A stretch of DNA of 64,000 nucleotides from Planococcus halotolerans (GTDB lineage Bacteria; Bacillota; Bacilli; Bacillales_A; Planococcaceae). This document shows positions 10,411-54,583 of the stretch, in pieces. The notes under the pieces were generated by a model. The model was not told the DNA's origin. It saw only the letters and a list, made by a program, of their open reading frames with translations, and made no database searches. The DNA lies in NCBI RefSeq assembly GCF_003289955.1, contig NZ_QLZR01000004.1, positions 1 to 64,000 on the forward strand. Reading direction: 5' to 3'. The position numbers and the translations under genes are program-made. Numbering within the stretch: the stretch's first letter is position 1; each line of letters opens with the position of its first letter.

Positions 10411-10512
10411 GAGTGATCATAGAACTGTTTGAGTGATCATAGAATCGTTTGAATGATCATAGAATCGTTTGAATGATCATAGAACCCCGAAAAGTGATCA
10501 TAGAACTGGCGA
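10411..10512 (+). repeat. Phased short-repeat array, family A, locus 1 (5 units)
   Basis: The core GTGATCATAGAA (or ATGATCATAGAA) begins at 10413, 10433, 10453, 10473 and 10494, a 20-base period with one 21. The 6-9 base spacers differ. A period of 20 cannot keep a reading frame, so the repeat is not coding. The rest of the gap 10335-10590 shows nothing else recognisable. Confidence 0.92.
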
Positions 10513-10596
10513 ACCACTCAAATCCCCCCGAAAAACCGCGCACAGCCCCATTTTAACCCCCAAGTAAACTGACAAATTCGAATACGAGCGTAATCC

Positions 10597-10625
10597 TTGT
10601 CCTACAATTTCCCCAGTGCTAGAAT
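10597..10625 (+). promoter_or_regulatory. Sigma-A promoter of the hem operon
   Basis: TTGTCC (10597-10602), a 17-base spacer, then TAGAAT (10620-10625). The PerR box begins five bases after the -10 element. A second possible -10, TATACT at 10703, lies nearer hemA but has a poor -35. Confidence 0.65.
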
Positions 10626-10629
10626 TAGA

Positions 10630-10644
10630 TTATAATCATTATAA
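10630..10644. promoter_or_regulatory. Perfect PerR box controlling hemAXCDBL
   Basis: TTATAATCATTATAA is an exact 7-1-7 palindrome and equals the known Bacillus PerR consensus TTATAATNATTATAA. It overlaps the transcription start expected from the promoter at 10597, so PerR bound there should repress. B. subtilis hemA is a known PerR target, with repression lifted by hydrogen peroxide. Confidence 0.88.
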
Positions 10645-10749
10645 ATAAACATACTTCATTGCTTGTTCACAATTTCGGAGGCTTATAAAGCATTGTTGGT
10701 GGTATACTTATATATATGAAATATGGAACGTGAAAGGTGTTTTGAACCC

Positions 10750-12126
10750 ATGCATACATTAGTAGTCGGGGTAAACTACCGCTCTGCACCCGTGGAGATC
10801 CGTGAAAAATTATCGTTTATCGAAAACGAACTTCCACAGGCCATGCAGGCTTTAAATAAACAAAAAAGCGTATTGGAGAACGTCATCGTATCAACGTGCA
10901 ACCGCACAGAGATTTACGCGGTGGTCGATCAGCTCCATACAGGCAAATACTATGTGAAGCAATTCCTGGCGGATTATTTTGATATTCCGCAGGAGTCGTT
11001 TTCGCAGTATTTATTTGTCCATGAAAAAGATGAGGCGGTCGAGCATCTATTCCGTGTAACTGCCGGGATCGATTCAATGGTGCTTGGTGAAACGCAGATT
11101 CTTGGACAGGTGAAGGGCAGCTTCCTTGCCGGACAGGAAATCGGCACGACGGGTACGGTTTTCAACCAATTATTCAAACAGGCAGTAACGCTTGCCAAAC
11201 GGGCGCATTCGGAAACAGCGATCGGCGAGAATGCCGTATCGGTTTCGTATGCGGCAGTTGAACTTGGCAAGAAGATTTTTGGCACGCTTAAAAACAAGCA
11301 CGTTGTCATCCTGGGCGCCGGCAAGATGGGCGAACTGGCAATCAAAAATCTTCAAGGCAGCGGAGCGGACCGGATTACGGTCATCAACCGCACATTTGAA
11401 AAAGCGGAAGTTCTTGCTGACAAATTCGGCGGCAAAGCGAAGCCGTTAAATGAATTGCAATGTGCATTGCTGGATGCGGATATTTTGATTTCATCAACAG
11501 GTGCTCAGGATTTCGTTATCGACCTTGAATTGATGCAATTCGTTGAGAAATTGCGCAAAGGCAAGCCTTTATTCCTTGTGGATATTGCTGTGCCGCGTGA
11601 TATGGATCCGCGCATCGGCGATTTGCCGAATGTATTCCTTTACGACATCGATGATATGCAAGGCATCGTTAACGCCAATCTGGCGGAACGCGAACGCGCT
11701 GCGACTCAAATCGTCTCCATGATTGATAAGGAAACGGGTCAATTCAATGACTGGCTGACGACTCTTGGCGTGGTTCCGGTGATTTCCGCATTGCGTGAAA
11801 AAGCACTTGGCATCCAGGCGGAAACGATGGCGAGCATCGAGAACAAGATGCCGGACCTGACTGACCGTGAGAAAAAAATCTTGAACAAACATACAAAATC
11901 GATCATCAACCAATTGCTGAAAGAGCCGGTCTCTCAGGCAAAGGAAATGGCCGGTTCACCGAAATCTCGCGAACAGCTCCAGTTGTTCCAGCAGATTTTC
12001 GGAATTGAAGAGGAAGTGCAAGTACAGATCGAGCAGCAGTCAAAAGCTGCTATGGTCAAAGCTGAAAAAGCTGCGGAAGATAAACAAAAGCAGCAACAAC
12101 AGGAATCACCCGGATATTCATTTTAA
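10750..12126 (+). CDS. hemA: Glutamyl-tRNA reductase
   Basis: First committed step of C5-pathway haem synthesis: reduces Glu-tRNA to glutamate-1-semialdehyde with NADPH. The catalytic Cys is in [23 protein letters not shown] (about residue 50). The motif [17 protein letters not shown] follows, then the nucleotide-binding [11 protein letters not shown], and a C-terminal helical dimerisation domain. The last 30 residues are a Gln/Lys-rich tail. The protein is 458 residues. ATG 10750 ([20 protein letters not shown]) follows AAAGGTG; an upstream in-frame ATG at 10723 overlaps that site. First gene of hemAXCDBL. Confidence 0.97.
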
Positions 12127-12210
12127 TCGGTTGGAAAGAGGCGTTTTCGAATCTATATGTTAAAATGTAGAGACGAAACGCCTTTTACTATGGAAATGAA
12201 GGGGAATGGG

Positions 12211-13041
12211 ATGGCTGATATAACAATGGCAAGGCTGCATGAAGCTATGGTTATTCTATATGCTGTCAGCCTTGTTTTTTATTTTTTGGATTATGTATAT
12301 AAAGAGAAAAAAGCGGCAAAAATAGCGATGTCGCTGCTTGGCGGCGTCTGGGTGCTTCAAACGGTGTTTCTTGTGTTTTATATCATAGAAACACAGAGGT
12401 TCCCGGTGCTTACGCTATTTGAAGGCATTTATTTTTATGCCTGGCTGCTTGTCACGGTGTCGCTCGTACTCCGGATATTCTACCGATTCGATTTTGCAGT
12501 GTTCCTGATCAATATCATCGGATTCATCTTCATGACGATTCATACATTCGCGCCGGTTCAGATTGAGCGATCGCCGGTCGGGGAATCGTTGATTTCCGAA
12601 CTATTGCTCATTCATATCAGTTTCGCGATTCTATCATATGCAGCATTTTCACTGTCATTCGTCTTTTCGCTGCTCAATCTGCTGCAATATCGGCTGTTGA
12701 AACGGAAAAAATGGACGAAACAATGGAACAGCCTGCCATCACTCGGCCAAACCGAAAAAGGGATGTCGATTTCGATCGGCGTCGGCATTTCACTGCTGTT
12801 CGTGTCCCTGGTACTTGGCCTGCAATGGGCGTACATAGCGCTCTTTGATTTCTCGATTTTCGATTTGAAGATCATCGGTTCATTTATACTTGTGGTCGTC
12901 TACAGTGTAATCCTGTGGCGCCATCAAAAAGGCACGTTGAATGGCATGTCCTATTCACTGGCCCATATTTACGCATTTTTAGTGCTGCTGATTAATTTCT
13001 TCCTCGGCAGCCGTTTATCGGAATTTCATTTTTGGTATTAA
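12211..13041 (+). CDS. hemX: HemX, integral membrane regulator of HemA
   Basis: A 276-residue protein with about eight transmembrane helices, related to the CcsA/ResC cytochrome c assembly family. In B. subtilis HemX lowers the cellular amount of HemA; that role is taken from the family. ATG 12211 gives [29 protein letters not shown], which aligns with the B. subtilis start; GGGGAATGGG precedes it. Earlier in-frame ATGs exist but add no family-like sequence. It sits between hemA and hemC, as in Bacillus. Confidence 0.93.
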
Positions 13042-13058
13042 GGAAAGGTAGGATTCAT

Positions 13059-13988
13059 TTGAGAAAAATCGTTGTAGGATCTAGAAGAAGTAAGCTTGCT
13101 TTAACGCAGACAAATCAGTTCATCGATAAATTGAAGGCGGCAGGAGCCCCTTTTGAATTTGAAATAAAAGAAATCGTCACTAAAGGCGACCGCATTGTGG
13201 ACGTAACCCTTTCGAAAGTCGGAGGCAAAGGTTTATTCGTAAAAGAAATCGAACAGGCGCTATTTAACAAAGAAATCGATTTTGCCGTACACAGCATGAA
13301 AGATATGCCATCGGTCCTTCCTGAAGGGTTCGTCATCGGCTGTGTGCCGGAACGCGAAGATCCGCGTGATGCTTTTATTGCCAATGGCCACGTGAAATTC
13401 ATGGATCTGCCAGTTGGCGCGAAAGTCGGAACAAGCAGCCTGCGCCGCAGTTCGCAGTTATTGTTGATACGTCCGGATCTGGATATCCAGTGGATCCGCG
13501 GCAACATCGATACCCGCCTAGGAAAATTGGAATCCGGTGAATTCGACGCCATCATTTTGGCGGCTGCCGGCTTGAAACGCATGGGCTGGAAAGACGATAT
13601 CGTTACTGAATTCCTTAGCATCGAAGAATGTCTCCCGGCGATCGGCCAGGGTGCTTTGGCGATTGAATGCCGTGAAGACGACATGGAATTACTCTCAGAA
13701 CTTGCGAAAATCAATGATGAAGAAACGATGCTTGCGGTTAACGCGGAACGTAAATTCCTGAAAGATATGAACGGCAGCTGCCAGGTTCCGATTGCGGGCT
13801 ATGCGACTGTCACTGAAGGTGAAATCACGTTTACAGGATTGATTTCCTCACCGGAAGCTGACCAGGTCTATAAAGAAACAGCAACAAGTAAAGATCCGAT
13901 TGAAGCAGGGCGCATCGTTGCTGATAAAATCAGCGAACAAGGCGGCTATGACCTGATCCAGCGTGTCATTGCTGAGAGCAATGTGTAA
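13059..13988 (+). CDS. hemC: Hydroxymethylbilane synthase (porphobilinogen deaminase)
   Basis: Condenses four porphobilinogen molecules. The N-terminal [20 protein letters not shown], the [10 protein letters not shown] loop, the arginine-rich [11 protein letters not shown] and [11 protein letters not shown], and the dipyrromethane-cofactor Cys in [12 protein letters not shown] are all present. Start TTG 13059 follows AAGGAAAGGTAGG. The protein is 309 residues, full length. Its 3' end overlaps the hemD start by eight bases. Confidence 0.96.
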
Positions 13989-14682
13989 CAACGAAAAATC
14001 GCTCGAAGGAAAAACAATCGTTTTTACAGGTTCAAACTTTCCGGAAGAAGCTGCCGGTAAAGTCGAAGAGCTCGGAGGCCAGGCCATTTACCTGCCGCTT
14101 ATAGAAACTTCGATCCGCCAGACGGATAAACCGGATTTCACTGATTACAGCTGGCTCATTTTCACGAGCCGCACAAGTGCGGAAGCATTTTGCCAGCTGC
14201 ATGCGGACGATGTACCGCACATTGCGGCTGTCGGTGAAAAAACGGCGGAAGTTCTTCAGAACAACGGTTATCGTGTGGATTTTATTCCGAGCGTTTACAG
14301 TGCCGACCGTTTTGTCGAGGAGTTCCCAGCTGCGGCGGACGGCCAGAAATGTTTATTCATCAAAGGTGCTTTGGCTAAAAACACCATTGCGAACATGCCT
14401 TTGCCGGTGGATGAATGGGTCATTTACGACACAGAACTGAAATTGGAAAATGCAAAAGCATTATCCCAAATGAAACAACAAACGATTATCTTTGCCAGCC
14501 CCTCAGCTGTTTCGGCTTACCGGAAAGCGGGAGGGGATTGGAGGGATATAGAGGTTGCGGCAATCGGCCACGTAACCGAAAAGGCGATCAAGGATGCAGG
14601 CGGGCATATCGATTTTATCCCCGCCACCTATACGTATTTGGACGTCGTCAATGAAATAGCGAAAGGAAGATGTAAACAATGA
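13981..14682 (+). CDS. hemD: Uroporphyrinogen-III synthase
   Basis: Closes and inverts ring D of hydroxymethylbilane. Family sequence is always weak; here KTIVFTG near the N-terminus, [24 protein letters not shown], and the second-domain [11 protein letters not shown] and IGHVTEKAI support it. ATG 13981 lies inside the hemC stop region, which implies coupled translation; an in-frame GTG at 13963 is further inside hemC and has no ribosome site. The stop overlaps the hemB ATG by four bases. The protein is 233 residues. Confidence 0.9.
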
Positions 14683-15659
14683 AAGACTTGAAATTCAACC
14701 GCCACCGGAGATTGCGCGGATCCGCGAATATTCGTGCCATGGTGCGTGAAACTGGACTTTATAAAGAAGATTTCATCTACCCGATTTTCGTCGTCGAAGG
14801 CGAAAACGTCAAACAGGAGATTTCGTCAATGCCTGGCGTCTATCATTTTTCAATGGACCGCCTAGGTGAAGAATTGGACGAAGTCGTCGATTTGGGGATA
14901 CCTTCAGTCATCCTGTTCGGTGTGCCGAACGACAAGGATGCTGTCGGTTCCGAAGCTTATCATGACCACGCCATCACACAGGAAGCCATCCGTTTCGCGA
15001 AAGAACGCCATCCGGAATTGCTGGTCATCGCTGATACATGCCTTTGCCAGTATACAGACCACGGCCATTGCGGCGTTATCGAAGACGGCGTCATTTTGAA
15101 TGACGAGTCGCTCGACCTGTTGGCACGCACAGCTGTATCCCAGGCGAAAGCGGGAGCGGACATCATCGCTCCATCGAACATGATGGACGGTTTTGTGGCA
15201 GCAATCCGCTACGGGCTGGACCAGGCTGGATTCCAGAACATTCCGATTATGAGCTATGCAGTGAAATATGCGTCGGCCTATTATGGCCCATTCCGCGAAG
15301 CTGCTCACTCAACGCCCCAATTCGGTGACCGCAAAACCTATCAGATGGACCCTGCCAACCGCCTCGAAGCGCTACGTGAAGCCGCTTCAGATGTGGAAGA
15401 AGGAGCCGATTACCTGATGGTCAAACCGGCATTGTCGTATTTGGACGTTGTCCGTGAAGTTCGCGACAACTTCAATTTGCCAATCGTTGCTTATAACGTT
15501 TCCGGCGAATACGCCATGGTCAAAGCCGCGGCTTTGAACGGATGGGTCGACGAAGAGAAGATCGTCCTTGAAACATTGCTCAGCATGAAGCGTGCTGGAG
15601 CTGATATTATCATGACGTATCACGCGAAAGACGCGGTACGCTGGCTGGAGGGGAAATAA
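14679..15659 (+). CDS. hemB: Porphobilinogen synthase (ALA dehydratase)
   Basis: Joins two 5-aminolevulinate molecules. The RHRRLR start region, the metal-binding cysteine cluster [15 protein letters not shown] near residues 118-132, the Schiff-base lysines in [19 protein letters not shown] and [12 protein letters not shown], and the C-terminal region are complete. The cysteine cluster marks the Zn-binding class. The start follows AAAGGAAGATG and overlaps hemD. The protein is 326 residues. Confidence 0.97.
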
Positions 15660-16946
15660 ATGGCATACGAAAAATCTACAGCAGCATTTGATGAAGCGAA
15701 AGGCTTGATGCCGGGCGGTGTTAACTCACCTGTCCGAGCATTCAAATCCGTAAATATGGATCCGATTTTCATGGCTTCCGGCAGCGGCGCCACAATCACG
15801 GATATCGACGGCAATACGTATATTGATTATGTCTTATCTTGGGGTCCGCTTATTCTGGGGCACGCACAACCGGACGTAGTTGCAGCAATCAAAGAGACAG
15901 CGGAACTCGGCACTTCATTCGGAGCTCCAACTGTCCTTGAAAATGAAATGGCGAAACTTGTAATGGACCGTGTTCCTTCCATCGAAATGGTGCGCATGGT
16001 GTCTTCCGGTACGGAAGCGACGATGAGCGCATTGCGTGTGGCACGCGGCTTTACAGGACGCAATAAAATCCTTAAATTCGAAGGATGCTATCACGGCCAC
16101 GGCGACAGCCTGTTGATCAAAGCAGGTTCCGGCGTTGCGACACTGGGTCTTCCGGATTCACCGGGAGTGCCAGCGTCAATTGCACAGAACACGATCACTG
16201 TTCCTTATAACGATTTGGAAAGTGTACGCCACGCATTCAAAGAGTTCGGCGACGATCTTGCAGCGGTAATCGTTGAACCGGTTGCCGGCAATATGGGCGT
16301 TGTTCCGCCAAACGAAGGCTTCCTTCAGGAACTGCGCAACCTGACGACTGAAAACGGTACTGTTCTTATCTTTGATGAAGTCATGACCGGTTTCCGTGTC
16401 GGATATAATTGTGCACAGGGCTATTACGGCGTGACGCCTGACATGACTTGCCTCGGCAAAGTTATCGGCGGCGGACTTCCGGTCGGTGCATTCGGCGGAC
16501 GCCGTGAAATCATGCAGCAGGTTGCACCAAGCGGTTCAATTTACCAGGCAGGTACGCTGTCAGGTAACCCGCTCGCAATGCGTGCAGGCTACGAAACATT
16601 GTCACGTTTGTCTGAAGACAGCTACACGACATTCATCGAACGCGGCGACCAGCTTGAAAAAGGTTTCCGTGAAGCCGCAGAGAAATACAATATTCCGCAC
16701 ACAGTAAACCGTGCGGGCTCGATGATCGGTTTCTTCTTCACAAACGAAGAAGTGGTTGATTTCGAATCAGCGAAAACATCCGATCTGGACCTGTTCGCAG
16801 ATTATTATAAATTGATGGCAGAAGAAGGCATCTTCCTGCCGCCGTCCCAGTTTGAAGGCATGTTCCTGTCGACAGCTCATACAGAAGAGCATATCGCCAA
16901 AACAGTGGAAGCATTCCACAACGTCTTTGCAAAACTGGCACGTTAA
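15660..16946 (+). CDS. hemL: Glutamate-1-semialdehyde 2,1-aminomutase
   Basis: PLP-dependent enzyme making 5-aminolevulinate. The [13 protein letters not shown] opening is typical. [17 protein letters not shown] binds the cofactor phosphate, [12 protein letters not shown] holds the Asp that pairs with the PLP ring nitrogen, and [17 protein letters not shown] holds the Schiff-base Lys. The ATG directly follows the hemB stop, with GGAGGGG before it. The protein is 428 residues. Last gene of the operon; the next Bacillus genes (spoVID, ysxE) are missing. Confidence 0.98.
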
Positions 16947-16960
16947 TAGAAGTGAGAGAC

Positions 16961-16988
16961 AGCCGGAGAACGTTCTCCGGCTGTTTTT
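16961..16988 (+). terminator. Terminator of the hem operon
   Basis: A perfect AGCCGGAGAA / TTCTCCGGCT stem with a two-base centre, followed by GTTTTTGTTTG. Confidence 0.92.
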
Positions 16989-17016
16989 GTTTGTGGATAA
17001 ACTATGCTTAAAAGTC

Positions 17017-17142
17017 GATATTCTGCCAAACAGCTACTCTTTCCAGCGGGCTCCCGCCCAATCCTCCTCGTCCGCTGCGCTCCCTGCGGTGTATCGGTCG
17101 TGTCGCAGAGCCGCAGGAGTCTTCGCTGTTTTGCTCCATATC
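17017..17142 (+). repeat. MITE-like element, family M, copy 2
   Basis: A 126-bp unit with the family ends GATATTCTGCCAAACAGC and the complement of GATATGGAGCAAAACAGC. Its GC-rich interior differs from the class seen at 7088 but keeps the closing CAGGAGTCTTCGCTG. It lies between hemL and the AbrB-family gene, in the interval where Bacillus has spoVID and ysxE. Confidence 0.8.
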
Positions 17143-17244
17143 TCTGGTTATTTTTCATTATGGTATGAGTATTATTTGTTTGGTACTTTTAAATAATGCA
17201 TAGAGTCAGAATACCGGTAGTATCGTAGCTAAATCTCGGTTTTG

Positions 17245-17378
17245 TCGCTTTTCGCCTGCGAAAAGCTTGTAATCGGGTTTTACCATGTAAGGAAAGGGCA
17301 GATTACAGGACTTCGTCCGAAAGTGCGGAGAGGAGGGAGCAGCCGGTGGATCTGGCTGCTCTTTTTTCATGAATAGGG
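17245..17378 (+). ncRNA. Putative structured small RNA, copy 1 (no known family assigned)
   Basis: Features in order: hairpin GCTTTTCGCcTGCGAAAAGC (17248-17267), a possible distant pairing of TGTAATC (17269-17275) with GATTACA about 25 bases later, a GGA-CTTCG-TCC stem-loop, a purine-rich stretch (GGAGAGGAGGGAGC), and a strong terminator GAGCAGCC / GGCTGCTC followed by six T. A nearly identical copy starts 291 bp later. Substitutions between copies mostly avoid the stems. Between TGTAATC and GATTACA only unpaired-looking sequence is seen. I do not recognise an Rfam family. It has no open frame with a ribosome site. It could instead be a leader or attenuator remnant. Confidence 0.5.
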
Positions 17379-17390
17379 AGTAAAAAGTAG

Positions 17391-17510
17391 CGAGTGATCA
17401 TAGAATCTCCGGAGAGATCATAGAAACGTTTGAGTGATCATAGAATCATTTGAGTGATCATAGAATCGGCTGAGTGATCATAGAATCCTCTGAGTGATCA
17501 TAGAATATCC
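17391..17510 (+). repeat. Phased short-repeat array, family A, locus 2 (6 units)
   Basis: The core (G/A)TGATCATAGAA begins at 17394, 17414 (as GAGATCATAGAA), 17434, 17454, 17474 and 17494, a strict 20-base period. Spacers vary. It follows the terminator of RNA copy 1. Confidence 0.93.
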
Positions 17511-17535
17511 TACAGCCATTTTGAAGTCAGCACTT

Positions 17536-17669
17536 TCGCTTTTCGCCAGCGAAAAGCTTGTAATCAGGTTTTGCCATGTAAGGAAAGGGCCGATTACAGG
17601 ACTTCGTCCGAAAGTGCGGAGAGGAGGGAGCAGCCGGTGGATCTGGCTGCTCTTTTTTTATGAATGGGG
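17536..17669 (+). ncRNA. Putative structured small RNA, copy 2
   Basis: Direct repeat of 17245-17378 at an offset of 291 bp, with the hairpin GCTTTTCGCCaGCGAAAAGC, the TGTAATC/GATTACA pairing, the GGA-CTTCG-TCC loop and the GAGCAGCC/GGCTGCTC terminator. The change CTGCG to CAGCG falls in the loop of the first hairpin. The downstream sequence up to the first array core is also duplicated. Confidence 0.5.
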
Positions 17670-17681
17670 AGAAAAGAGTAG

Positions 17682-17800
17682 CGAGTGATCATAGAACCCC
17701 AATGAGTGATCATAGAATCTCCTGAATGATCATAGAATCGAATAAGTGATCATAGAATCGAATAAGTGATCATAGAACCCCAAAAAGTGCTCATAGAATT
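17682..17800 (+). repeat. Phased short-repeat array, family A, locus 3 (6 units)
   Basis: Cores begin at 17685, 17706, 17726, 17746, 17766 and 17787, with periods of 21, 20, 20, 20 and 21. The last core is AGTGCTCATAGAA. With locus 2 it forms a 291-bp tandem unit of RNA candidate plus array. It ends 71 bases before the AbrB-family gene. Confidence 0.92.
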
Positions 17801-17870
17801 TTTCACCGCCCGCAATTTATCTGTTAGGATATAGAGATAGGCTATATTGCGAAAGAAGGTAGAGTTAGTT

Positions 17871-18920
17871 TTGAAATTATTGCGTACAGCGCTGGTTGCG
17901 GTTGTTGCCGGCTTTATTTTTCAGCAAATCGGCATGTTTTTGCCGTGGCTGCTCGGACCGATGATTGCGCTGTTAGTGCTTCGGCAGGTTACGGAGATGG
18001 AATTTTATTGGCCGCGTATATTCCGCACGGTCGGATTAATTTTACTGGGCGTCATGATCGGGGCATCGTTTACGCGTGAGTCGGTGCTGCTGATGTGGGT
18101 GGATTTGCCGTATATGCTGTTTATGACGGTGTCTGTTATAATCGCCGCATTATTATTCGGACTCTTGTTCAGCAAGATGGCCAACGAATCGCTGCAGTCG
18201 AGTCTGCTAGGGTCGATGCCGGGCGGCTTATCGCAGATGGTGCTGATTTCGGAAGAAGTCAATAACGCCAACGTCACCGTCGTGTCGGTGATGCAGACGT
18301 TCCGGATTTTCCTGGTGGTGACAATTGTGCCGCTGCTGACAACTTTCTTGGCCGGCAGGGAAGCATCCAAAATTGCGGAGACTCCCGCCGTCTCCTTTTC
18401 ACCCATAGCATTTACAGCCGCCATCATTCTCGGCATCATCTTTTATTTGTTAATGAAGCGTTTTTCATTCCCCGCAAAAGAGCTATTGGCACCCGTACTC
18501 GTCATGGCTATCGTCCAGTCATTCACCGGCGCCACACTTATCGAGATGCCGCCGCTTCTCACAATCCTGGCCCAGCTGCTCGTCGGTGCGCATCTCGGCC
18601 TGCAGATGGAGAAACTGCGGGAGAATATGAGCATGAGGCTGGCGTTTGCGATTGTGGTCAATAACGTTTTGCTCATCGCGTTCACGGTTTTGATTGCTTA
18701 TATCTTATCCGCGCTTCTTCCGGAATACCTGTTCCTCGATTTCTTCCTGAGTGCGGCACCCGGCGGTATGGCCGAGATGGGGATTACGGCGCTCGCTGCC
18801 GGTGCGGATGTTGCACTCATCACAAGTTTCCATCTGTTCCGCCTGTTCTTTATTTTATTGCTTGCGGCGCCTGCAGTGGCGTATGTGCTGAAAAAACTTG
18901 ACGCTAAAACAGGAAATTGA
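17871..18920 (+). CDS. AbrB-family integral membrane protein
   Basis: A 349-residue protein of about ten transmembrane helices made of two similar halves; each half has a gly-rich GMFLPWLLGPMIALL or MPGGLSQM / APGGMAEMGITALAAG motif near a helix break. This matches the AbrB duplicated-domain family once called ammonia monooxygenase regulators. It is unrelated to the transcription factor AbrB. The transported substrate is unknown. Start TTG 17871 (MKLLRTALVAVVAGFIF) follows GAAAGAAGGTAG; an in-frame TTG at 17847 lies before that site. Its last codons overlap the valS leader promoter. Confidence 0.82.
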   Translation: MKLLRTALVAVVAGFIFQQIGMFLPWLLGPMIALLVLRQVTEMEFYWPRIFRTVGLILLGVMIGASFTRESVLLMWVDLPYMLFMTVSVIIAALLFGLLFSKMANESLQSSLLGSMPGGLSQMVLISEEVNNANVTVVSVMQTFRIFLVVTIVPLLTTFLAGREASKIAETPAVSFSPIAFTAAIILGIIFYLLMKRFSFPAKELLAPVLVMAIVQSFTGATLIEMPPLLTILAQLLVGAHLGLQMEKLRENMSMRLAFAIVVNNVLLIAFTVLIAYILSALLPEYLFLDFFLSAAPGGMAEMGITALAAGADVALITSFHLFRLFFILLLAAPAVAYVLKKLDAKTGN

Positions 18921-18927: not shown

Positions 18928-18933
18928 GGATTT

Positions 18934-22119: not shown

Positions 22120-22226
22120 AAATTGCTTAAAAGTTAGTAGATTTGTGGACAGAAGAGTCAGATCACTTAGATTGCTAGCTGGAAATATTAACTAAAATAA
22201 ATTCTAATTTCAACAAGTATTAAAAT

Positions 22227-22340
22227 AGAAAGTATTTCAGCCAAATTGGAAAGTAATCAGGCTGATTTGGAAAGTATTTAGGTGCAAATAGAAAGTATTT
22301 TAAGTGATTTGGAAAGTAAGTCCAAATATTGGAAATACAA
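22227..22340 (+). repeat. Phased short-repeat array, family B1 (6 units)
   Basis: The core TGGAAAGTA (variants AGAAAGTA, GGAAATAC) recurs with aligned positions at 22227, 22248, 22269, 22290, 22311 and 22331: four periods of exactly 21 and a last one of 20. Spacers are AT-rich and differ. Confidence 0.85.
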
Positions 22341-22407: not shown

Positions 22408-22510
22408 TAATGGACAGTAAGTGAAGCTTAATGGACAGTATTCAACCTCTAATGGACAGTTTTTGATGCATAACGGACAGTATTGCACCTGTAACGGACA
22501 GTATATCCAA
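22408..22510 (+). repeat. Phased short-repeat array, family B2 (5 units)
   Basis: The core TAATGGACAGTA or TAACGGACAGTA has its TGGACAG/CGGACAG part at 22411, 22432, 22453, 22474 and 22495, exactly 21 bases apart. It is a different sequence from the B1 array 70 bases upstream. Confidence 0.9.
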
Positions 22511-46587: not shown

Positions 46588-46591
46588 TTTA

Positions 46592-46713
46592 CAGAAAAGC
46601 GGAAGCGCCCGTTCAGCTCCGAAAGACATAAGACGGATCAGCGGAGCGGCGCACCTTGCCGCAGAGCTGAGATGGCTTATGATCCGAGGAGTTGGGCGCT
46701 GGAGTCTGGACAC
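46592..46713 (+). repeat. REP-like element, family R1, copy 3
   Basis: A 122-bp unit starting CAGAAAAGCGGAAGCGCCC and ending GGGCGCTGGAGTCTGGACAC. AGCGCCC/GGGCGCT, AGCTCC/GGAGTT, CATAAG/CTTATG and CAGC/GCTG pair in nested order, so it folds as one long hairpin. The next copy follows without a gap. Confidence 0.92.
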
Positions 46714-46834
46714 CAGAAAAGCGGAAGCGCCCGTTCAGCTCCGAAAGACATAAGACGGATCAGCGGAGCGGCGTACTTTGCCGCAGAGCTGAGATGGCTT
46801 ATGATCCGAGGAGTTGGACGCTGGAGTCTGGACA
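46714..46834 (+). repeat. REP-like element, family R1, copy 4 (tandem)
   Basis: Nearly identical to copy 3; I count about three substitutions, which points to a recent tandem duplication. One of them weakens the outer stem (GGACGCT for GGGCGCT). Together the copies fill most of the gap between mreD and minC. Confidence 0.92.
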
Positions 46835-46914
46835 GGAAAACGCCATTTCAGAAGCTTTCTTAAATTAAAAAATAAACTTTAATATTATTGATTGAAAGCG
46901 CAGGTGACGCATTT

Positions 46915-47583
46915 TTGAAGAATCTTGTCTATATAAGAGGAACGAAAGAAGGCCTTGTGCTGCAGCTCGACGACCAGTGTGCCTACACGGACATGCTAAA
47001 CGAACTGAAAGCCAAGGTTTCGGACCCTGCGCTTGATGGCAGCGCCGAAGTGCAGCTCCATCTGGGCTATCGTTATTGTACCGAAGCCCAATACAAGGAA
47101 ATTGTCGCAACCATCCAGAACAATTCGCATCTGCGGGTATCAAAGATGCGGAGCGAAGTGATTTCCGTCGAAGAAAGCAATAAACGGATCCAGGAACGCC
47201 AGTCCGAGACGTATGTCGGCATTGTCCGTTCCGGGCAGGTAGTGAAAGCTGAAGGGGATCTCGTCGTAGTCGGCGACATCAACCCGAACGGCCGGGTAGT
47301 GGCCGGCGGCAATATCTACGTGCTGGGCCGTCTGAAAGGAATCGCCCATGCCGGTGCGTATGGCAACCGCGAGGCTGTCATTGCTGCATCCTGGCTGGAA
47401 GCGACCCATCTAATGATCGACGATCTGATTGAAACGATGACCGACGAATTGTCGGTGCTGTCTGAACAGCCGGAAATGGAATGTGCGTATATACATAGCA
47501 ACGGCCAGAACATCGTCATCGATCGTCTGCAGGAATTGCGGTATATCCGGCCGCAAATTTCAACGTTTAAAGGAGGAAGCTAG
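46915..47583 (+). CDS. minC: Septum-site protein MinC
   Basis: A 222-residue inhibitor of FtsZ assembly. The N-terminal domain starts MKNLVYIRGTKEGLVLQLDD; the C-terminal beta-helix that binds MinD is VVKAEGDLVVVGDINPNGRVVAGGNIYVLGRLKGIAHAG. Start TTG 46915 follows CAGGTGA; the in-frame start at 46888 has no site. Its stop is one base before the minD GTG. Confidence 0.96.
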   Translation: MKNLVYIRGTKEGLVLQLDDQCAYTDMLNELKAKVSDPALDGSAEVQLHLGYRYCTEAQYKEIVATIQNNSHLRVSKMRSEVISVEESNKRIQERQSETYVGIVRSGQVVKAEGDLVVVGDINPNGRVVAGGNIYVLGRLKGIAHAGAYGNREAVIAASWLEATHLMIDDLIETMTDELSVLSEQPEMECAYIHSNGQNIVIDRLQELRYIRPQISTFKGGS

Positions 47584-47584
47584 T

Positions 47585-48385
47585 GTGGGAGAAGCAATCG
47601 TTATAACATCAGGTAAGGGAGGCGTCGGTAAAACGACGACAACCGCCAATCTCGGCACTGCATTGGCTCTTCAGGGGAAAAAGGTTTGCCTGATCGATAC
47701 CGATATCGGTCTGCGCAATCTTGATGTTATTCTTGGTCTCGAAAACCGCATCATCTATGACCTTGTCGATGTTCTAGAAGGCCGCTGCAAAGTGCACCAG
47801 GCTCTCGTAAAAGACAAGCGCTTTGAAGATATGCTTTATTTATTGCCAGCCGCCCAGACGGTTGATAAGAACGCCATCAATCCTGAGCAGATGAAGGCAC
47901 TTGTGACGGAACTCAAGAAAGATTACGATTTCGTCATCATCGACTGTCCTGCGGGCATCGAGCAGGGCTATAAAAATGCCGTAGCCGGTGCTGACCGCGC
48001 CATCGTCGTCACCACGCCTGAAATTTCAGCCGTGCGCGACGCCGACCGCATCATCGGCCTGCTCGAGCTCGAAGAAAACATCGAGCCGCCAAAACTCATC
48101 ATCAACCGCATCCGCCAGCATCTTATGAAAGCCGGCGAAGCCCTTGATATCAACGAAATCACGACCCACCTGTCCATCGACCTCCTCGGCATCGTAGCCG
48201 ATGACGAAAGCGTCATCTCCAGCTCGAACCGCGGCGAACCCGTCGTCATGAATCCGGCCAATCCGGCTGCCATGGGCTACCGCAACATCGCGCGCCGCCT
48301 TCTCGGCGAATCCGTGCCGCTGATGACGATGGATAAACAGAACACTGGTGTGTTTTCGAAGATTAAAGCGATTTTTGCTAAATAA
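47585..48385 (+). CDS. minD: Septum-site ATPase MinD
   Basis: A 266-residue ParA/Mrp ATPase. The deviant Walker A GKGGVGKTTT, switch regions DTDIGLRNLDVILGLENR and VIIDCPAGIEQGY, and the C-terminal amphipathic membrane-targeting helix GVFSKIKAIFAK are all visible. GTG 47585 follows AAGGAGG at the minC end. In B. subtilis spoIVFA and spoIVFB come next; here they are absent. Confidence 0.97.
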   Translation: MGEAIVITSGKGGVGKTTTTANLGTALALQGKKVCLIDTDIGLRNLDVILGLENRIIYDLVDVLEGRCKVHQALVKDKRFEDMLYLLPAAQTVDKNAINPEQMKALVTELKKDYDFVIIDCPAGIEQGYKNAVAGADRAIVVTTPEISAVRDADRIIGLLELEENIEPPKLIINRIRQHLMKAGEALDINEITTHLSIDLLGIVADDESVISSSNRGEPVVMNPANPAAMGYRNIARRLLGESVPLMTMDKQNTGVFSKIKAIFAK

Positions 48386-48510
48386 ATTCTATTTGAGACT
48401 TTTGAAGATAAAAGTGATAAAAATTTTACTTGAGATTTTCGAAGTTCAAAGCGTTAAAATTCTACTTGAGACTTTCGAAGACAAAATGATAAGAATTCTA
48501 CTTGAGACCC
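48386..48510 (+). repeat. Longer-period repeat array, family E (3 full units and 1 partial)
   Basis: The unit ATTCTACTTGAGACTTTCG plus about 17 variable bases starts at 48386, 48423, 48459 and 48495 (periods 37, 36, 36). It begins at the base after the minD stop codon and its last unit runs into the terminator. An open frame through it is not supported by any ribosome site. Confidence 0.85.
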
Positions 48511-48536
48511 CCGCAGAAGATTGCGGGGGTTTTTTG
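48507..48536 (+). terminator. Terminator of minCD
   Basis: ACCCCCGCA / TTGCGGGGGT stem with a short AGAA loop, followed by six T. Confidence 0.92.
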
Positions 48537-48662
48537 TGGATTTTTGGAAAGAGTCAAATTGGCAACATAGAGTTTATCTAATGCTCTTATAGAACCGAAG
48601 CGAATTTACAAAATATTTTATTGAATAAATACTAAAGCTCGAATAACGAAAAGGGGTGCAGG

Positions 48663-49601
48663 TTGGACGTGCAAATGCTGAAGGGGATGGTTTTATTTGA
48701 TAGATTGCCGGTGAGGCATGCGGCAAAAGACAAAGTGTTCGGTGAAGTGAAGAGGTCGTTGGCGGGAGCGGCGGGAGAGAAGCGGACAGCGGAATTGCTG
48801 GAGCGGGAATTGGATCTCGCGGAGAAGGCGAAGATTTTTCGCGGCGTGTGGCTACCTTATATGGATGGCTTTGCTCAAGTGGATGTTCTGTTGCTGCACC
48901 CGAATTTTATATGTGCGCTCGAGGTGAAGAATATGGTGGGCGAGTTCTATTTTGATAAAGATAATTTTCAATTTTATCGAATAGTCGATGGGCGAAAAGA
49001 AGGCATGCGCAATCCGGAGTCGCAGCTGCACCGCGCAGTCAAAGCGACCGAGAAGTTTTTCGGATTTAAAGTTCATGGCACCATCGTTATGTCTAGCCGC
49101 TCGGGAAGAGTCGCCGTACCGCCGAAACTCTATCCGGTCATCGCGCTCGACTATCTGCCGTTTCATATCGAGAAGATGGTGGACCCTCTTTTATCGTTCG
49201 ACGTTGAAGGTCTTGAGGGTTTAGTGCGGCGTAGCCGCGGGCAATTCAACGGTCCTGATCTTTTGTTGAAGCATAAGCTGACGAGGGATTGTTTGGAGGT
49301 GGGGGTTCGGTGTTTGGGGTGTCGTAGGGTAATGTGTGAGTGGCGGGATCGTAAGTGGCGCTGCAGTTATTGTGGATCTATATCTTCGAACGCTCATGAG
49401 TTTGCGCTGCAGGAATATACAATATTGTTTGGGAGTGAATTGACGACAGAATTCGCATATAAATGGCTTGGGATAAAAGATAAGTATGTTCTGTATCGCC
49501 TGTTGGGAAATTGCACCATTAAAAGTAACAAAAGAGGGACACGCTATATTATTGAAAACAGGAGCCTATTAATTGACCATTTTAAGGAGATTTATTCGTG
49601 A
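48663..49601 (+). CDS. NERD-domain protein with CxxC zinc ribbon
   Basis: A 312-residue protein. The NERD (nuclease-related) domain spans about residues 35-150: GAAGEKRTAELLERE, then the nuclease-like D...E-K signature in MDGFAQVDVLLLHPNFICALEVKNMVGEF. A putative zinc ribbon follows, CLGCRRVMCEWRDRKWRCSYCG (residues about 218-239). Function is unknown; DNA processing is an inference from the fold. TTG 48663 follows AAAAGGGGTGCAG. It lies where Bacillus has spoIVFAB, between two repeat arrays. G-rich codon stretches (GGAGGTGGGGGTTCGG) differ from its neighbours. Confidence 0.82.
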   Translation: MDVQMLKGMVLFDRLPVRHAAKDKVFGEVKRSLAGAAGEKRTAELLERELDLAEKAKIFRGVWLPYMDGFAQVDVLLLHPNFICALEVKNMVGEFYFDKDNFQFYRIVDGRKEGMRNPESQLHRAVKATEKFFGFKVHGTIVMSSRSGRVAVPPKLYPVIALDYLPFHIEKMVDPLLSFDVEGLEGLVRRSRGQFNGPDLLLKHKLTRDCLEVGVRCLGCRRVMCEWRDRKWRCSYCGSISSNAHEFALQEYTILFGSELTTEFAYKWLGIKDKYVLYRLLGNCTIKSNKRGTRYIIENRSLLIDHFKEIYS

Positions 49602-49696
49602 CCGCACCTCAAAAGGGAATAACCGCACCTCAAATGAAGATTTCCGCACCTCAGACAGCTATTTCCGCACCCCAGAGCATTCAACCCGCATCTCAG
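49602..49696 (+). repeat. Phased short-repeat array, family C (5 units)
   Basis: CCGCACCTCA (variants CCGCACCCCA and CCGCATCTCA) begins at 49602, 49623, 49644, 49665 and 49686, exactly 21 bases apart. It starts at the base after the NERD stop. Because 21 is a multiple of three an open frame passes through it, but there is no ribosome site and no codon logic. Downstream to 49880 is AT-rich DNA with nothing else recognisable. Confidence 0.92.
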
Positions 49697-49884
49697 AAAT
49701 GAATATGCATAATATTTCCAGCCGGAAGCTAACTTTTCAACAACTTCACCACCAATTCCGACCTGTTCAGTTCTCAACCAGCTCATTTCTGTTCAAATCT
49801 TATTCATTTCTTCCTAAATCAAATCCATTTTTATTTAAATCATTAAAATCGTTAACCAATACCCACTCAATCCGACAATATCTA

Positions 49885-49912
49885 TTGACGCGGCCTACTC
49901 CGGCGTGATACT
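49885..49912 (+). promoter_or_regulatory. Sigma-A promoter of the rplU operon
   Basis: TTGACG (49885-49890), a 16-base spacer, then GATACT (49907-49912) with an extended TG, just upstream of the L21 leader. Confidence 0.7.
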
Positions 49913-49919
49913 ATTTTAA

Positions 49920-50030
49920 TGTTATGTTTGTAGCGCACCTGTGCTACAACCGCTCGAACCGGGTCAGCAAGCATTCGCAGCAATGTGGATCACCTGGATA
50001 GGCGAGTCTTAGTCTAAGAGGAGGTGCAAG
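49920..50030 (+). promoter_or_regulatory. Ribosomal protein L21 leader
   Basis: A structured 5' leader matching the L21 leader of Firmicutes in position and motifs: the GTAGCGCACCTGTGCTAC hairpin, CCGCTCGAACCGGGTCAGC, ATGTGGATCACCTGGATAGG, and GCGAGTCTTAGTCTAAGAGG next to the ribosome site of rplU. It is thought to let L21 regulate its own operon. Confidence 0.85.
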
Positions 50031-50033
50031 GAT

Positions 50034-50342
50034 ATGTACGCAATTATTGAAACTGGTGGTAAACAGATCAAAGTTGAAGCGGGTCAGGAGATCTACGTTG
50101 AGAAATTGAACGGAGAAGCTGGTGACACGATCACATTTGACAAGGTTCTATTTGTAGGTGGAGATGACACTAAAGTGGGTGTTCCTTTTGTTGAAGGAGC
50201 TACTGTTACAGCTAAAGTTGAAAAACACGGCAAACAGAAAAAAATCACTGTCTTCAAATACAAAGCTAAAAAGAACTACCGTAAAAAGCAAGGTCACCGT
50301 CAACCATACACAAAATTGACTGTTGACGCGATCAACCTGTAA
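50034..50342 (+). CDS. rplU: 50S ribosomal protein L21
   Basis: A 102-residue protein of usual length starting [17 protein letters not shown], with the RNA-binding C-terminus [20 protein letters not shown]. The strong site AAGAGGAGGTGC precedes it. First gene of rplU-prp-rpmA. Confidence 0.99.
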
Positions 50343-50344
50343 GA

Positions 50345-50981
<637 letters not shown>

Positions 50982-50989
50982 TAAAAACG

Positions 50990-51018
50990 AAAAGGGCTGC
51001 TTTCGCAGTCCTTTTTCT
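50990..51018 (+). terminator. Terminator after rpmA
   Basis: AAAAGGgCTGC-tttc-GCAGtCCTTTTTC. It separates rpmA from spo0B-obg. Confidence 0.82.
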
Positions 51019-51084
51019 TTTTTAGGAATTTCACGAATAAAATTGGTATACTGAAAAAAGAAGAAAGTTTAGGACGTGAGTGTA

Positions 51085-51600
51085 ATGGATGACTCGATTA
51101 CGGTGGCACAAGCGCTTCGGCATGCGCGCCACGATTTCTTGAATGAGCTTCAATTGATTCAGATGAAACTTGATCTTGGACGTGGGCAGGACGTGAAATC
51201 GATAATTCGATCGCGTGCCGAAGCGGCTGTGCAGCTGAACAGGCTGTCAGCGCTTAAGATGCCGGCGGCCGAACATTGGCTGCTGACGGCAGAATGGCGT
51301 TTTCCGGAGTTTCGTTTCCATTTGGAATGCCTTGCGCAAGCGGGGATCACCACAAAAGATGCAGCATTTGCCGACTGGCTGGAACAGTTTTTCTCCAGCC
51401 TGAAGGAGCAGGCGGATACTGCATCGGACATCAGCTGCCGAACAGTATTGAAAGAACAGCAATCCGATTTTGAAATCGGATTGGATTTGAACGGAAACCT
51501 GCCGGACACCCAGTTGCCGGAGGTTCCGGGTTTATTGGCACGGAAAGAGATTGCAGCAGACAGCTTAAAAATAATTGTCAGCGCAAAGATGGAGGGATAA
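51085..51600 (+). CDS. spo0B: Spo0B-like phosphotransferase
   Basis: A 171-residue protein. The phosphorylated His lies in [15 protein letters not shown] (about residue 16), the Spo0B histidine signature; a degenerate kinase-like C-terminal domain follows. In Bacillus Spo0B passes phosphate from Spo0F to Spo0A. Place between rpmA and obg supports the name. It is shorter than B. subtilis Spo0B (192). ATG 51085 is preferred to GTG 51076, which is too near AGGA. Sporulation genes are missing at several other expected places, so its partner may differ. Confidence 0.82.
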
Positions 51601-51601
51601 T

Positions 51602-52891
51602 ATGTTTGTCGATCACGTAAAAGTTTATGTTAGAGGTGGCGACGGCGGGGATGGCATGGTAGCATTCCGCCGCGAGAAATATGTACCGAACGGCGGACCA
51701 GCCGGCGGTGACGGTGGTAAAGGCGCGAACGTAGTCTTTATCGTACAGGAAGGTTTGCGCACGCTGATGGATTTCCGCTATAAACGGATATTCAAGGCTG
51801 ACCGCGGAACACATGGCATGAGTGCCAATAAACACGGTGCTAAAGCTGAAGATTTGGTTATCGAAGTTCCACCGGGCACAGTTGTAAAAGATGCTGATAC
51901 CGGCGAAACGATTGCTGACCTGGTTGAACACGGCCAAACAGCGGTTATTGCAAAAGGAGGACGCGGAGGACGCGGGAACTCGCGCTTTGCGACACCTGCC
52001 AATCCGGCACCAGAACTATCTGAAAAAGGTGAACCAGGATTTGAGCGCAACGTCATTCTGGAATTGAAAGTTCTTGCAGATGCAGGGCTTGTCGGATTCC
52101 CAAGTGTCGGGAAATCGACTTTATTGTCAGTCGTTTCCGCTGCCAAACCGAAAATTGCCGAATATCATTTCACGACAATCGTGCCTAACCTCGGAATGGT
52201 TGAAACGGAAGACCAGCGCAGCTTCGTTATGGCTGATTTACCTGGACTGATCGAAGGCGCTCACGAAGGAATCGGCCTTGGCCATCAATTCCTGCGCCAT
52301 ATCGAACGGACACGCGTCATCGTCCATGTCATCGATATGTCCGGTCTGGAAGGCCGCGATCCTTACGAAGATTATGTAACAATCAATGAAGAATTAAAAC
52401 AGTACAACATGCGTTTGACGGAGCGTCCGCAATTAATCGTTGCGAATAAAATGGATATGCCGGATTCGGAAGAAAACCTTGAAGCGTTCCGCAAGAAATT
52501 GCCGGAAGATGCACGGGTTTTCCCAATATCTGCACTTAGCCGCCAAGGCTTGAACAATCTATTATTCGCCATCGCGGATCTTCTTGAAGTAACATCGGAA
52601 TTCCCGATGATCGATGATGAAACTGACGAATCAGAAAGTGCAGTACTTTACCGTCACGAATCGGACAGCGATGGGTTCTCAATTTCACGCGATCCGGACG
52701 GTGCTTATGTAATCAGCGGCTATGCCATCGAGCGTCTGTTCAAGATGACCGACTTCTCGCGTGAAGATTCAATTCGCCGATTTGCCCGCCAGATGCGCGG
52801 CATGGGAATTGATGATGCGTTGCGCGAAAAAGGTGCTGAAGACGGCGACACAGTTCGTTTGCTTGAGTTTGAATTCGAATTTACTGAGTAA
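51602..52891 (+). CDS. obg: Obg/CgtA-family GTPase
   Basis: A 429-residue GTPase of ribosome assembly and stress signalling. The glycine-rich Obg fold ([28 protein letters not shown]), G1 [12 protein letters not shown]3 [13 protein letters not shown]4 ANKMDMP and G5 ISALS are present, with a C-terminal OCT domain. ATG 51602 follows GGAGGG at the spo0B end. Confidence 0.98.
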
Positions 52892-52908
52892 ATCTGGAGG
52901 GGACATGG

Positions 52909-53361
52909 ATGAAGGATATTTCAGAACAGCGGTATTTTTTGGTGCGCGAAGATGTTTTGACCGAGGCGATGCAAAAAACGCTGGAAGTCAAAAAGATGCT
53001 GCAGCGCGGTAACATTTCCATACTCGATGCTGTGGAAAAGACCGGCTTGTCCCGATCTGCTTTCTATAAATACCGGGACGCTGTTTTTCCTTTCCATTCC
53101 ATTGTCAAAGAACGGATCCTGACGGTTTTCCTACAATTGGAGGACCGGACGGGGACGCTTGCCACATTGCTCGAAGCAGTTGCCCAAGCTGGATGCAATA
53201 TATTGACGATCCATCAGACGATTCCCATCCAGGGGCGTGCCAATGTCACGCTTTCGCTGGATGTGACGGCGATGGAGCAGGAGCTTGATGTCTTTTTGCA
53301 GCAGCTGAAAAAACTCGATTTCGTCGAGTCGGCAGATGTGGTATCAAGCGGATCATTTTAA
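52909..53361 (+). CDS. pheB: ACT-domain protein PheB
   Basis: A 150-residue protein with an N-terminal helix-turn-helix-like segment (ISILDAVEKTGLSRSAFYKYRDAVFPF) and a C-terminal ACT domain (ILTVFLQLEDRTGTLATLLEAVAQAGCNILTI). Orthologous to B. subtilis PheB (YszB), of uncertain role. It sits between obg and pheA. GGAGGGG precedes the ATG. Confidence 0.93.
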   Translation: MKDISEQRYFLVREDVLTEAMQKTLEVKKMLQRGNISILDAVEKTGLSRSAFYKYRDAVFPFHSIVKERILTVFLQLEDRTGTLATLLEAVAQAGCNILTIHQTIPIQGRANVTLSLDVTAMEQELDVFLQQLKKLDFVESADVVSSGSF

Positions 53362-53376
53362 TTTGGGAGTGGTTTG

Positions 53377-54240
53377 ATGGCTGAGCAGCAGACGAAAAAA
53401 CGAATTTCTTTTTTGGGACCGGACGCTTCGTTCACCCATTTAGCGGCATTGAAGGCATTTCCGGACAGTGAATTGATTGCCTATACGACAATCCCGGAAT
53501 GCATTGAAGCAGTAGCGGAAGATAAAGTCGATTATGCAGTGGTGCCGCTCGAGAATGCACTTGAAGGCTCGGTGCCGCTGACGATCGATTATTTGTTCCA
53601 TGAAGTGCAGCTTTACGTGACGGCGGAAGTGCTGTCGCCGATCGAGCAGCATTTGATGGTTCACCCGGATAACGCGGAATCGGATGCATTCGAAGCGATT
53701 TATTCGCATCCGCATGCTTTGGCGCAATGCCATAAATTCCTTTATTACACTTACAAAAACACGCCGCTTGAGCAATACAGCTCGACTTCGGCTGCGGCCA
53801 AAATGGTCAGCGAACTGCCGGAGCGAAATATTGCAGCGATTGGCAATGAATTCTCGGCCGAAAAATACGGCCTGCACATTGTCCACCGGGAAATCCATGA
53901 TTTCCATTTCAATCACACACGTTTTTTCGTGCTGTCGAAAACGAACCATCAACTGGAGAATCCTGCTCATAATGAGGAAGTGAAAACGACGTTGATGATT
54001 TCCCCGCCGAAAGACGACCGTTCGGGTGTCCTTCACCAAGTGCTTTCCGTATTCGCCTGGCGCCAGCTCAACTTGAGTAAAATCGAGTCGCGGCCGCTGA
54101 AGACGGGTCTCGGAAATTACTTCTTCATCGCCGACGTGATGGATGACGAAATGTCGCCGATGATGCAGGGAGCTTTCATGGAACTTGCGGCTCTAGGCTG
54201 CACAGTGAAAACGCTGGGCTCGTATTACACGTATGAATGA
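53377..54240 (+). CDS. pheA: Prephenate dehydratase
   Basis: A 287-residue enzyme making phenylpyruvate for phenylalanine. The catalytic domain starts RISFLGPDASFTHLAAL, with VPLENALEGSV and the T-R-F site in NHTRFFVLSK. The ACT domain has the Phe-binding ESRPLKTGLGNYFFIAD, so feedback inhibition is expected. ATG 53377 follows GGGAGTGG. Confidence 0.97.
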   Translation: MAEQQTKKRISFLGPDASFTHLAALKAFPDSELIAYTTIPECIEAVAEDKVDYAVVPLENALEGSVPLTIDYLFHEVQLYVTAEVLSPIEQHLMVHPDNAESDAFEAIYSHPHALAQCHKFLYYTYKNTPLEQYSSTSAAAKMVSELPERNIAAIGNEFSAEKYGLHIVHREIHDFHFNHTRFFVLSKTNHQLENPAHNEEVKTTLMISPPKDDRSGVLHQVLSVFAWRQLNLSKIESRPLKTGLGNYFFIADVMDDEMSPMMQGAFMELAALGCTVKTLGSYYTYE

Positions 54241-54242
54241 AT

Positions 54243-54363
54243 CAGAAAAGCGACAGCGCCCGTTAAGCTCTGAAAGGCATAAGACGGAACAATGAAGTGG
54301 CGGTTTTTGCCACGTAATTGGACCGGCTTATGACCCGAAGAGCTGGGCCGCTGGAGTCTAGAC
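54243..54363 (+). repeat. REP-like element, family R1, copy 5
   Basis: About 121 bp: CAGAAAAGCGACAGCGCCC ... AGCTCTGAAAGGCATAAGACGG ... GGCTTATGACCCGAAGAGCT ... GCTGGAGTCTAGAC. It starts two bases after the pheA stop and a terminator follows it. Confidence 0.88.
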
Positions 54364-54369
54364 ATAACG

Positions 54370-54408
54370 AAAGCTCCGCTGCCGGATTGGCAGCGGAGCT
54401 TTTTTCTG
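54370..54408 (+). terminator. Terminator of obg-pheB-pheA
   Basis: AAAGCTCCGCTGCC-ggatt-GGCAGCGGAGCTTTTTT. Confidence 0.92.
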
Positions 54409-54431
54409 TTCTAAGAGCTTTGGAATGAAAA

Positions 54432-54488
54432 GCCTTCGCGGATGCGAAGGCTCCCTTAAAAGATTGGAGTTTTCGCTACGCGAAAACT
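54432..54488. repeat. Two perfect TTCGC/GCGAA hairpins
   Basis: AGCCTTCGC-ggat-GCGAAGGCT (54431-54452) and AGTTTTCGC-tac-GCGAAAACT (54468-54488), 35 bases before the family D array. No T-run follows. Confidence 0.75.
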
Positions 54489-54522
54489 TCCGCTTGGGAT
54501 ACTAGGATATAGAAAATATTGC

Positions 54523-54583
54523 TTGCCGATCATAAACAGGTGGTAGCCGATCACAAATCATCGGTAGCCGATCATAAAAGCTA
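54523..54583 (+). repeat. Phased short-repeat array, family D (3 units)
   Basis: GTAGCCGATCATAAA (first unit CTTGCCGATCATAAA, second with CACAAA) has CCGATC at 54526, 54547 and 54568, exactly 21 bases apart. The GATCATAAA part resembles the family A core GATCATAGAA. Confidence 0.85.

Follow-up and report, generated by a model that had tools for sequence, protein, structure and literature searches.

Tandem sites that are phased with the DNA helix and serve a dedicated protein are known as the iterons of plasmids and phages, which are located at replication origins. Direct repeats at 20-23 bp, with cores varying between elements, occur also at the ends of IS21 elements, where pairs of ends surround istA/istB and the enzyme is a DDE transposase, while in REPIN-RAYT systems inverted pairs of repetitive extragenic palindromic (REP) sequences, forming hairpins, are combined with a tyrosine (HUH) transposase. 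Here we analyze seven arrays of short direct repeats in a 64,000-nucleotide stretch of Planococcus halotolerans DNA (contig NZ_QLZR01000004.1, positions 1 to 64,000; hereafter the window), together with the proteins that probably read them, which consist of a NERD domain, a zinc ribbon and a winged-helix-like domain. PglW is a NERD-domain protein as well. The NERD domain (PF08378) is also shared by SmdA, a staphylococcal membrane protein; according to its authors (PMC9040797), what NERD does in bacteria had not been investigated, and the passages of their paper considered here contain no link to arrays. At the level of titles and abstracts, nothing in the open-licence literature of PubMed Central (PMC) ties NERD proteins to repeat arrays among the matches listed, and the pairing of such proteins with repeat arrays of their own appears to have no description there.

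We propose, with a probability of about three in four, that the arrays are binding-site arrays of paralogous NERD-zinc ribbon-winged helix proteins (further referred to as readers), each paralog having one core, and that the common period is the footprint of the family. The observations behind this proposal are the geometry of the arrays, their linkage to reader genes, the pairing of cores with protein clades and the co-variation of core and winged helix, as well as the retained nuclease residues and the persistence of arrays in place with turnover of their units.

Arrays of the window and their geometry

The arrays (Table 1) had been noticed earlier in the sequence of the window, with the claim that seven of them share a step of 20-21 bp (the original prediction). 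They are real: a detector run blind, set to 9-bp cores with up to one mismatch, a minimum of three copies and periods of 18-24 bp, found over the whole window exactly these seven, all previously known, while 20 windows simulated with a second-order Markov model yielded one cluster in total (mean 0.05 per window). Different cores do have a common period, as was claimed, but they are not all unrelated, since A resembles E and B resembles C; core A includes the 6-bp palindrome TGATCA. Neither were the location and the strand quite as uniform as supposed. Array D, considered intergenic like the rest, begins at the stop codon of a NERD gene, within a probably false frame of 111 amino acids, and the plus orientation of all cores is confined to the window: across the genome, the 56 core-pair matches of family A comprise 39 forward and 17 reverse ones. 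As to replication, against which the strand was to be checked, nine of twelve A arrays have a positive local GC skew on their own strand, which is not a rule.

The period is peaked also beyond the window, contrary to the flat distribution that the original prediction named as a refuting case. In a 464-kb sample of the P. halotolerans genome (the window plus 400 kb), searched for periods from 13 to 60, 14 of the 16 noncoding arrays have a period of 20-21 bp, and ten Markov-simulated noncoding controls contain 0-2 arrays each, of any period. Array D is missing from this count, being masked by the probably false reading frame. With D included, 15 arrays of the sample were assigned to cores by eye, two of them on the other strand: three to A, one to B, three to C, two to D, one to E, two to CGCACATAAA, two to CCGCAACTAAA and one to CGCGCATAA.

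The spacers differ while the cores are kept, as had been predicted. In family A, with 144 inner units taken from five genomes, the entropy does not exceed 0.36 bit at 11 of the 12 core positions and amounts to 0.9-1.9 bits at seven of the eight spacer positions; the arrays were located by the core, which favours it, 21 of these units not being exact over GATCATAGAA. The figures are similar in a set of mostly exact units. The units of C and D appear similar in this contrast, though these were chosen by the core. The last unit of family A is often a variant ending in GCTCATAGAA.

A NERD protein in the window

Since NERD genes were found both at two A arrays of another locus (L085) and at array D, the partner of the arrays was sought in the NERD family. 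The window protein matches the Pfam NERD model (PF08378) at 3.7e-14 (53.6 bits, curated cut-off 22.1), and the L085 protein, 312 amino acids long and flanked by the two A arrays, at 52.2 bits; the two proteins are homologous (6e-19). The original prediction took the arrays as intergenic elements and knew of no such system; most likely they do have a partner, a family of NERD-domain DNA-binding proteins with one reader for each core, the predicted reader of D being encoded in the window itself, directly upstream of array D.

The AlphaFold2 model of the window protein has a predicted local distance difference test (pLDDT) score of 94.6. Both the fold and the D...(D/E)xK residues of the PD-(D/E)XK superfamily are present; in 68 proteins of the genus, the catalytic columns contain D in 68, K in 68 and E or D in 64, and the four zinc-ribbon cysteines are conserved in 68, 65, 68 and 67 of them. 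The protein is nuclease-like, and cutting activity is predicted for it. In four readers of the CGCACATAAA clade (L262, L290, L333 and L340), S replaces the catalytic E/D, hinting that cutting may have been lost and reading kept. With Foldseek alone, neither of two models matched a PDB entry at E<=0.001, and the NCBIfam scan gave no match near a cut-off. Defence models, with four proteins scanned, were matched only weakly (Cas12f at 0.01, and PglW at 0.032 for one reader), and nothing was found in a promoter scan upstream of one reader.

Linkage of reader genes and arrays

A profile of the NERD readers finds matches in 41 of the 46 genomes of the genus (E<=1e-20), and the other five (G019, G028, G035, G041 and G042) have no reader at 1e-10. 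An order-wide profile search gave matches in 234 of 261 genomes and 16 of 19 genera (E<=1e-25), the listed genomes all belonging to one family. P. halotolerans has ten readers.

A strict array lies within 500 bp of 64 of the 74 gene copies of the genus (some loci being repeated) and, outside the genus, at 47 of 51 copies (two of these being the same place, and some fragments). Inspected by eye, eight of the ten misses in the genus have degenerate arrays, while L313 shows no more than a trace and the L345 copy is broken. Among 114 distinct proteins with a length of 285 amino acids or more, 105 have a core that occurs no fewer than three times within 450 bp; six have none and three have two copies. 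Arrays of at least three copies at this distance occur at 11 of 279 control genes in 400 kb of P. halotolerans and at none of 494 in eight other samples; under the strict rule, the controls gave 22/328, 2/72, 0/68 and 0/66. When periods from 13 to 60 were searched, 132 of 163 reader-side arrays had a period of 20-21.5 bp, 28 the double of it and three another one; this search placed a 19-22 bp array at 90 of the 114 readers, the remaining 24 including some double-period calls and some missed arrays. Arrays begin at a median of 35 bp from the stop codon, 22 of 86 of them not more than 10 bp away. The P. halotolerans genome encodes readers for A, B, D and E, while one for C was found in relatives only.

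Table 1. Arrays and reader features of the window, and readers of three of its cores elsewhere in the genome.
Feature	Position	Strand	Remarks
Array A1	10413..10505	+	5 x GTGATCATAGAA, steps 20, 20, 20, 21 bp
Array A2	17394..17505	+	6 x GTGATCATAGAA, every step 20 bp
Array A3	17685..17798	+	6 units, the last a variant, steps 21, 20, 20, 20, 21 bp
Array B	22225..22321	+	5 x TTGGAAAGTATTT, step 21 bp
Array C	22408..22505	+	5 x TAAYGGACAGT, step 21 bp
NERD-zinc ribbon-winged helix protein, 312 amino acids	48663..49601	+	Predicted reader of core D
PD-(D/E)XK-type residue codons D74, E87, K89	48882..48929	+	Conserved columns
Zinc ribbon C217-C220...C234-C237	49311..49373	+	Four conserved Cys
Winged-helix-like domain	49392..49550	+	Predicted core reader, from models and co-variation with the core in close pairs
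Array D	49602..49695	+	5 x CCGCACCTCA, step 21 bp; cis array of the window NERD gene
Array E	54525..54578	+	3 x GCCGATCATAAA, step 21 bp
A reader	G000:C16:126117 (L085)		Flanked by two A arrays
B reader	G000:C1:168337 (L317/L425)		Three degenerate B units after the stop codon
E reader	G000:C13:47376 (L314)		5-copy E array

Correspondence of readers and cores

The tree of 104 readers, judged by eye, largely sorts by core, and nine of the ten P. halotolerans paralogs have recognisable cis cores, each different from the others. Core distance correlates with protein distance over 105 proteins (rho 0.284, 0/999 permutations), and the correlation remains in pairs more than 60% different (rho 0.126, 0/999). 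In 329 close pairs the core is explained by the distance between winged helices (partial rho 0.471, 0/999 permutations), and the rest of the protein is without effect (partial rho 0.005, 462/999); over all 5460 pairs, both the winged helix (0.186) and the rest of the protein (0.156) contribute.

Near-identical proteins with different cores differ mainly in their C-terminal parts, as judged from ten hand-picked pairs, some of which are less clear. L316 (ATCGCTGAT) and the second reader of L336 (ATCGACGAT) have a tight patch of differences in the predicted recognition helix. Between L317 (GGAAAGTA) and L339 (GGACAGTA), 30 of 249 positions are different before the zinc ribbon and 38 of 80 after it, while for L317 and L348, whose core is the same, these numbers are 64 of 249 and 18 of 79, respectively. 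The winged-helix end of the gene adjoins the array, so both could be exchanged together. The claim of a two-turn geometry shared by changing cores is supported, and so is protein binding, which the original prediction had offered as the reason for it.

Arrays in related genomes

Family A is present in 11 of the 46 genus genomes. Array A1 is found at the same place in three relatives, and the array between engB and hemA occupies the same site in P. halotolerans and in three further species, its flanks being 84-98% identical. Orthologous arrays differ between species in unit number and spacers. In the window, arrays A2 and A3 are contained in a tandemly duplicated intergenic stretch. The window reader gene is located between genes of a MinD-like ATPase and ribosomal protein L21, and the frames of these two flank the D reader in all 24 D-type loci (20 distinct places).

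At least three readers together with pair matches of A, C or D occur in 28 of the 46 genomes, fewer than three readers and no such match in 16. The other two, G022 and G025, have readers but no A, C or D pair matches; their readers have cis arrays, several with other cores. Reader number and pair matches are correlated (Spearman 0.76, relatedness ignored). All 11 genomes with A and all 17 with D fall inside the 28 with C; the backward control of the C pattern gave one match each in G021 and G026. In random samples, the relation of array density to reader number was too weak to use. No array was found in 100-kb samples of each of G001, G014 and G018, and no 20-21 bp array in random 80-kb samples of G006, G008 and G012 (5-7 readers each), which indicates that solo arrays are sparse in the latter three genomes. 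The samples of the reader-less G019 and G028 contain one irregular array each, with periods of 43 and 19, respectively; the irregular array observed in G019 (L432:10104-10238) is CGCACATAAA-like and is possibly a relic.

Some arrays are left without a reader. Though C arrays are common, array C is an orphan in P. halotolerans, as a C array is missing at all ten of its readers; it accompanies readers in relatives (L339, L351, L420 and L421), and in G029, G017 and G021 C belongs to the close relative of the B reader (82% identity with the G029 copy). G017 and G021 keep A arrays without an A reader. At the A-reader locus of G021 the gene is absent and one array is retained, which on its left side matches the left flank of the first P. 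halotolerans array and on its right side is closer to the right flank of the second array (0.78) than to that of the first one (0.66); a deletion of the reader gene by recombination between the two arrays would give this pattern. The solo arrays are most likely dispersed or orphaned sites.

Outside Planococcaceae, the A-pattern matches look like chance or coding repeats (21 loci inspected by eye, two of them from Sporosarcina). The exceptions are an array of Vibrio sp. S9_S30 (L128:1553-1672), with six units at 20 bp and a core close to CGATCATAGAA, which has no NERD match at 1e-3 within the surrounding 8 kb, and perhaps one with two units from an Acetobacteraceae assembly (L148).

Several further repeats were noticed. 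A palindrome like CGCTTTTCGCCTGCGAAAAGC stands beside several arrays (window positions 17260-17390 and 17540-17680, and after both arrays of L085) and is possibly a separate dispersed repeat or a terminator. Just upstream of minC (46592-46834), the window contains two tandem copies of 122 bp, 97% identical. A gene of the Abi_2 family adjoins a family-A array at L084:2663-3634.

Proposed mechanism and alternative explanations

We infer direct binding, autoregulation, cutting and a benefit. Each paralog would read its own core of about 10 bp with the winged helix, one unit being bound per two turns of DNA, so that the 20-21 bp step would set the copies on one face. The cis array, often at or soon after the stop codon of the reader gene and sometimes also upstream, may provide for autoregulation, and the same core occurs also in solo arrays between unrelated genes. 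The nuclease centre may nick or cut at the arrays, with subsequent recombination adding, losing and spreading units. The outcome would be an inherited population of a reader and its repeats, resembling REPIN-RAYT in its working but with a different enzyme. The more specific version, in which the NERD proteins nick or cut their own arrays and the winged-helix end moves with the array as a cassette, is put forward tentatively. The repeats may be a selfish population or the binding system may be useful to the host, as the evidence fits either.

As an alternative, the readers could be domesticated NERD DNA-binders with an idle nuclease centre, the solo arrays setting expression or folding of their neighbourhood as regulon or nucleoid sites. 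The retention of arrays such as the engB-hemA one at the same places in several species speaks for it, and so does the D reader kept between the MinD-like and L21 genes. However, the genes adjoining the A arrays are functionally unrelated, the arrays are oriented both along and against the upstream gene (nine same, three opposite in P. halotolerans), and orthologous arrays change unit number and spacers freely. We regard this explanation as unlikely.

Much less probable are iteron-like decoys against replication proteins of plasmids or phages. Iterons do have the same geometry and a core changing with the replicon, and the best viral-model match of the fold is a phage protein named nuclease-related domain protein. 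But the B/C and A arrays have no plasmid match, a search with one protein each found neither the D reader among PLSDB plasmids (1e-10) nor the A reader among INPHARED phages (1e-6), the repeats at the five viral loci inspected for A and D appear unrelated (core C has seven further viral matches), and no Rep, the replication initiator of an iteron replicon, was found among the scanned neighbours of arrays.

That the solo arrays are leftover ends of IS21- or Tn7-type transposons is already largely refuted and highly improbable. In the genus, IS21 elements end in 3-4 repeats at 20-22 bp, and IstA requires a pair of direct repeats at each end (PMC10122671); moreover, the IS21 loci L066 and L074 contain TCCGCA(C/A) repeated at 22 bp, a motif similar to the start of core D, and CGGACA is found both in other IS21 ends and in core C. 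Nevertheless, the P. halotolerans genome lacks matches to IS21 transposase (E<=1e-20) and to the Mu-transpos_C domain (E<=1e-5), the latter being found in seven of the 46 genus genomes. Neighbouring A arrays run in the same direction and form no inverted pairs around istA/istB, no array of cores A-E was seen at the 30 IS21 loci examined, where the units read have a second box, and the genes beside the arrays are NERD rather than transposase genes. As a separate observation, the ends of the IS21 loci L063, L072, L074, L075 and L076 have 3-4 two-box repeats at 20-22 bp, and the described IS21 two per end.

Neutral variable-number tandem repeats are barely credible: although unit number varies and pairs of units (40 bp) are tandemly duplicated in some arrays, the cores are near-invariant and the spacers of the same units near-random, and gene linkage and reader-core co-variation speak against such repeats as well.

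Significance and comparison with known systems

With NERD proteins as the partners of the arrays, a large and little-studied protein family gains a likely DNA target readable from the genome, and unexplained intergenic repeats become sites with a named partner. Owing to the layout of gene beside sites, dozens of reader-core pairs could be used for working out a DNA-recognition code. If the cassette version is true, a reader can switch recognition word and sites at once, and a single nuclease scaffold carries dozens of natural DNA specificities within one bacterial family. The arrays would also provide a second case, unrelated to RAYTs, for the upkeep of small repeat populations in bacterial genomes.

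Iterons belong to replication origins, whereas the NERD arrays are chromosomal and adjoin nuclease-like genes. In working principle, REPIN-RAYT is the closest system. According to PMC8049555, there too a vertically inherited gene has its own dispersed repeats, the repeats are found also in genomes without the gene, and the gene is unseen on plasmids. A dedicated protein with dispersed repeats is likewise suggested here by linkage and co-variation. Still, the NERD arrays are not a member of REPIN-RAYT, because the enzyme, the form of the repeats and the number of parallel specificities differ: instead of an HUH transposase and hairpin-forming inverted REP pairs, they combine a PD-(D/E)XK-type protein matching NERD with direct repeats at a two-turn step, in about ten specificities in one genome.

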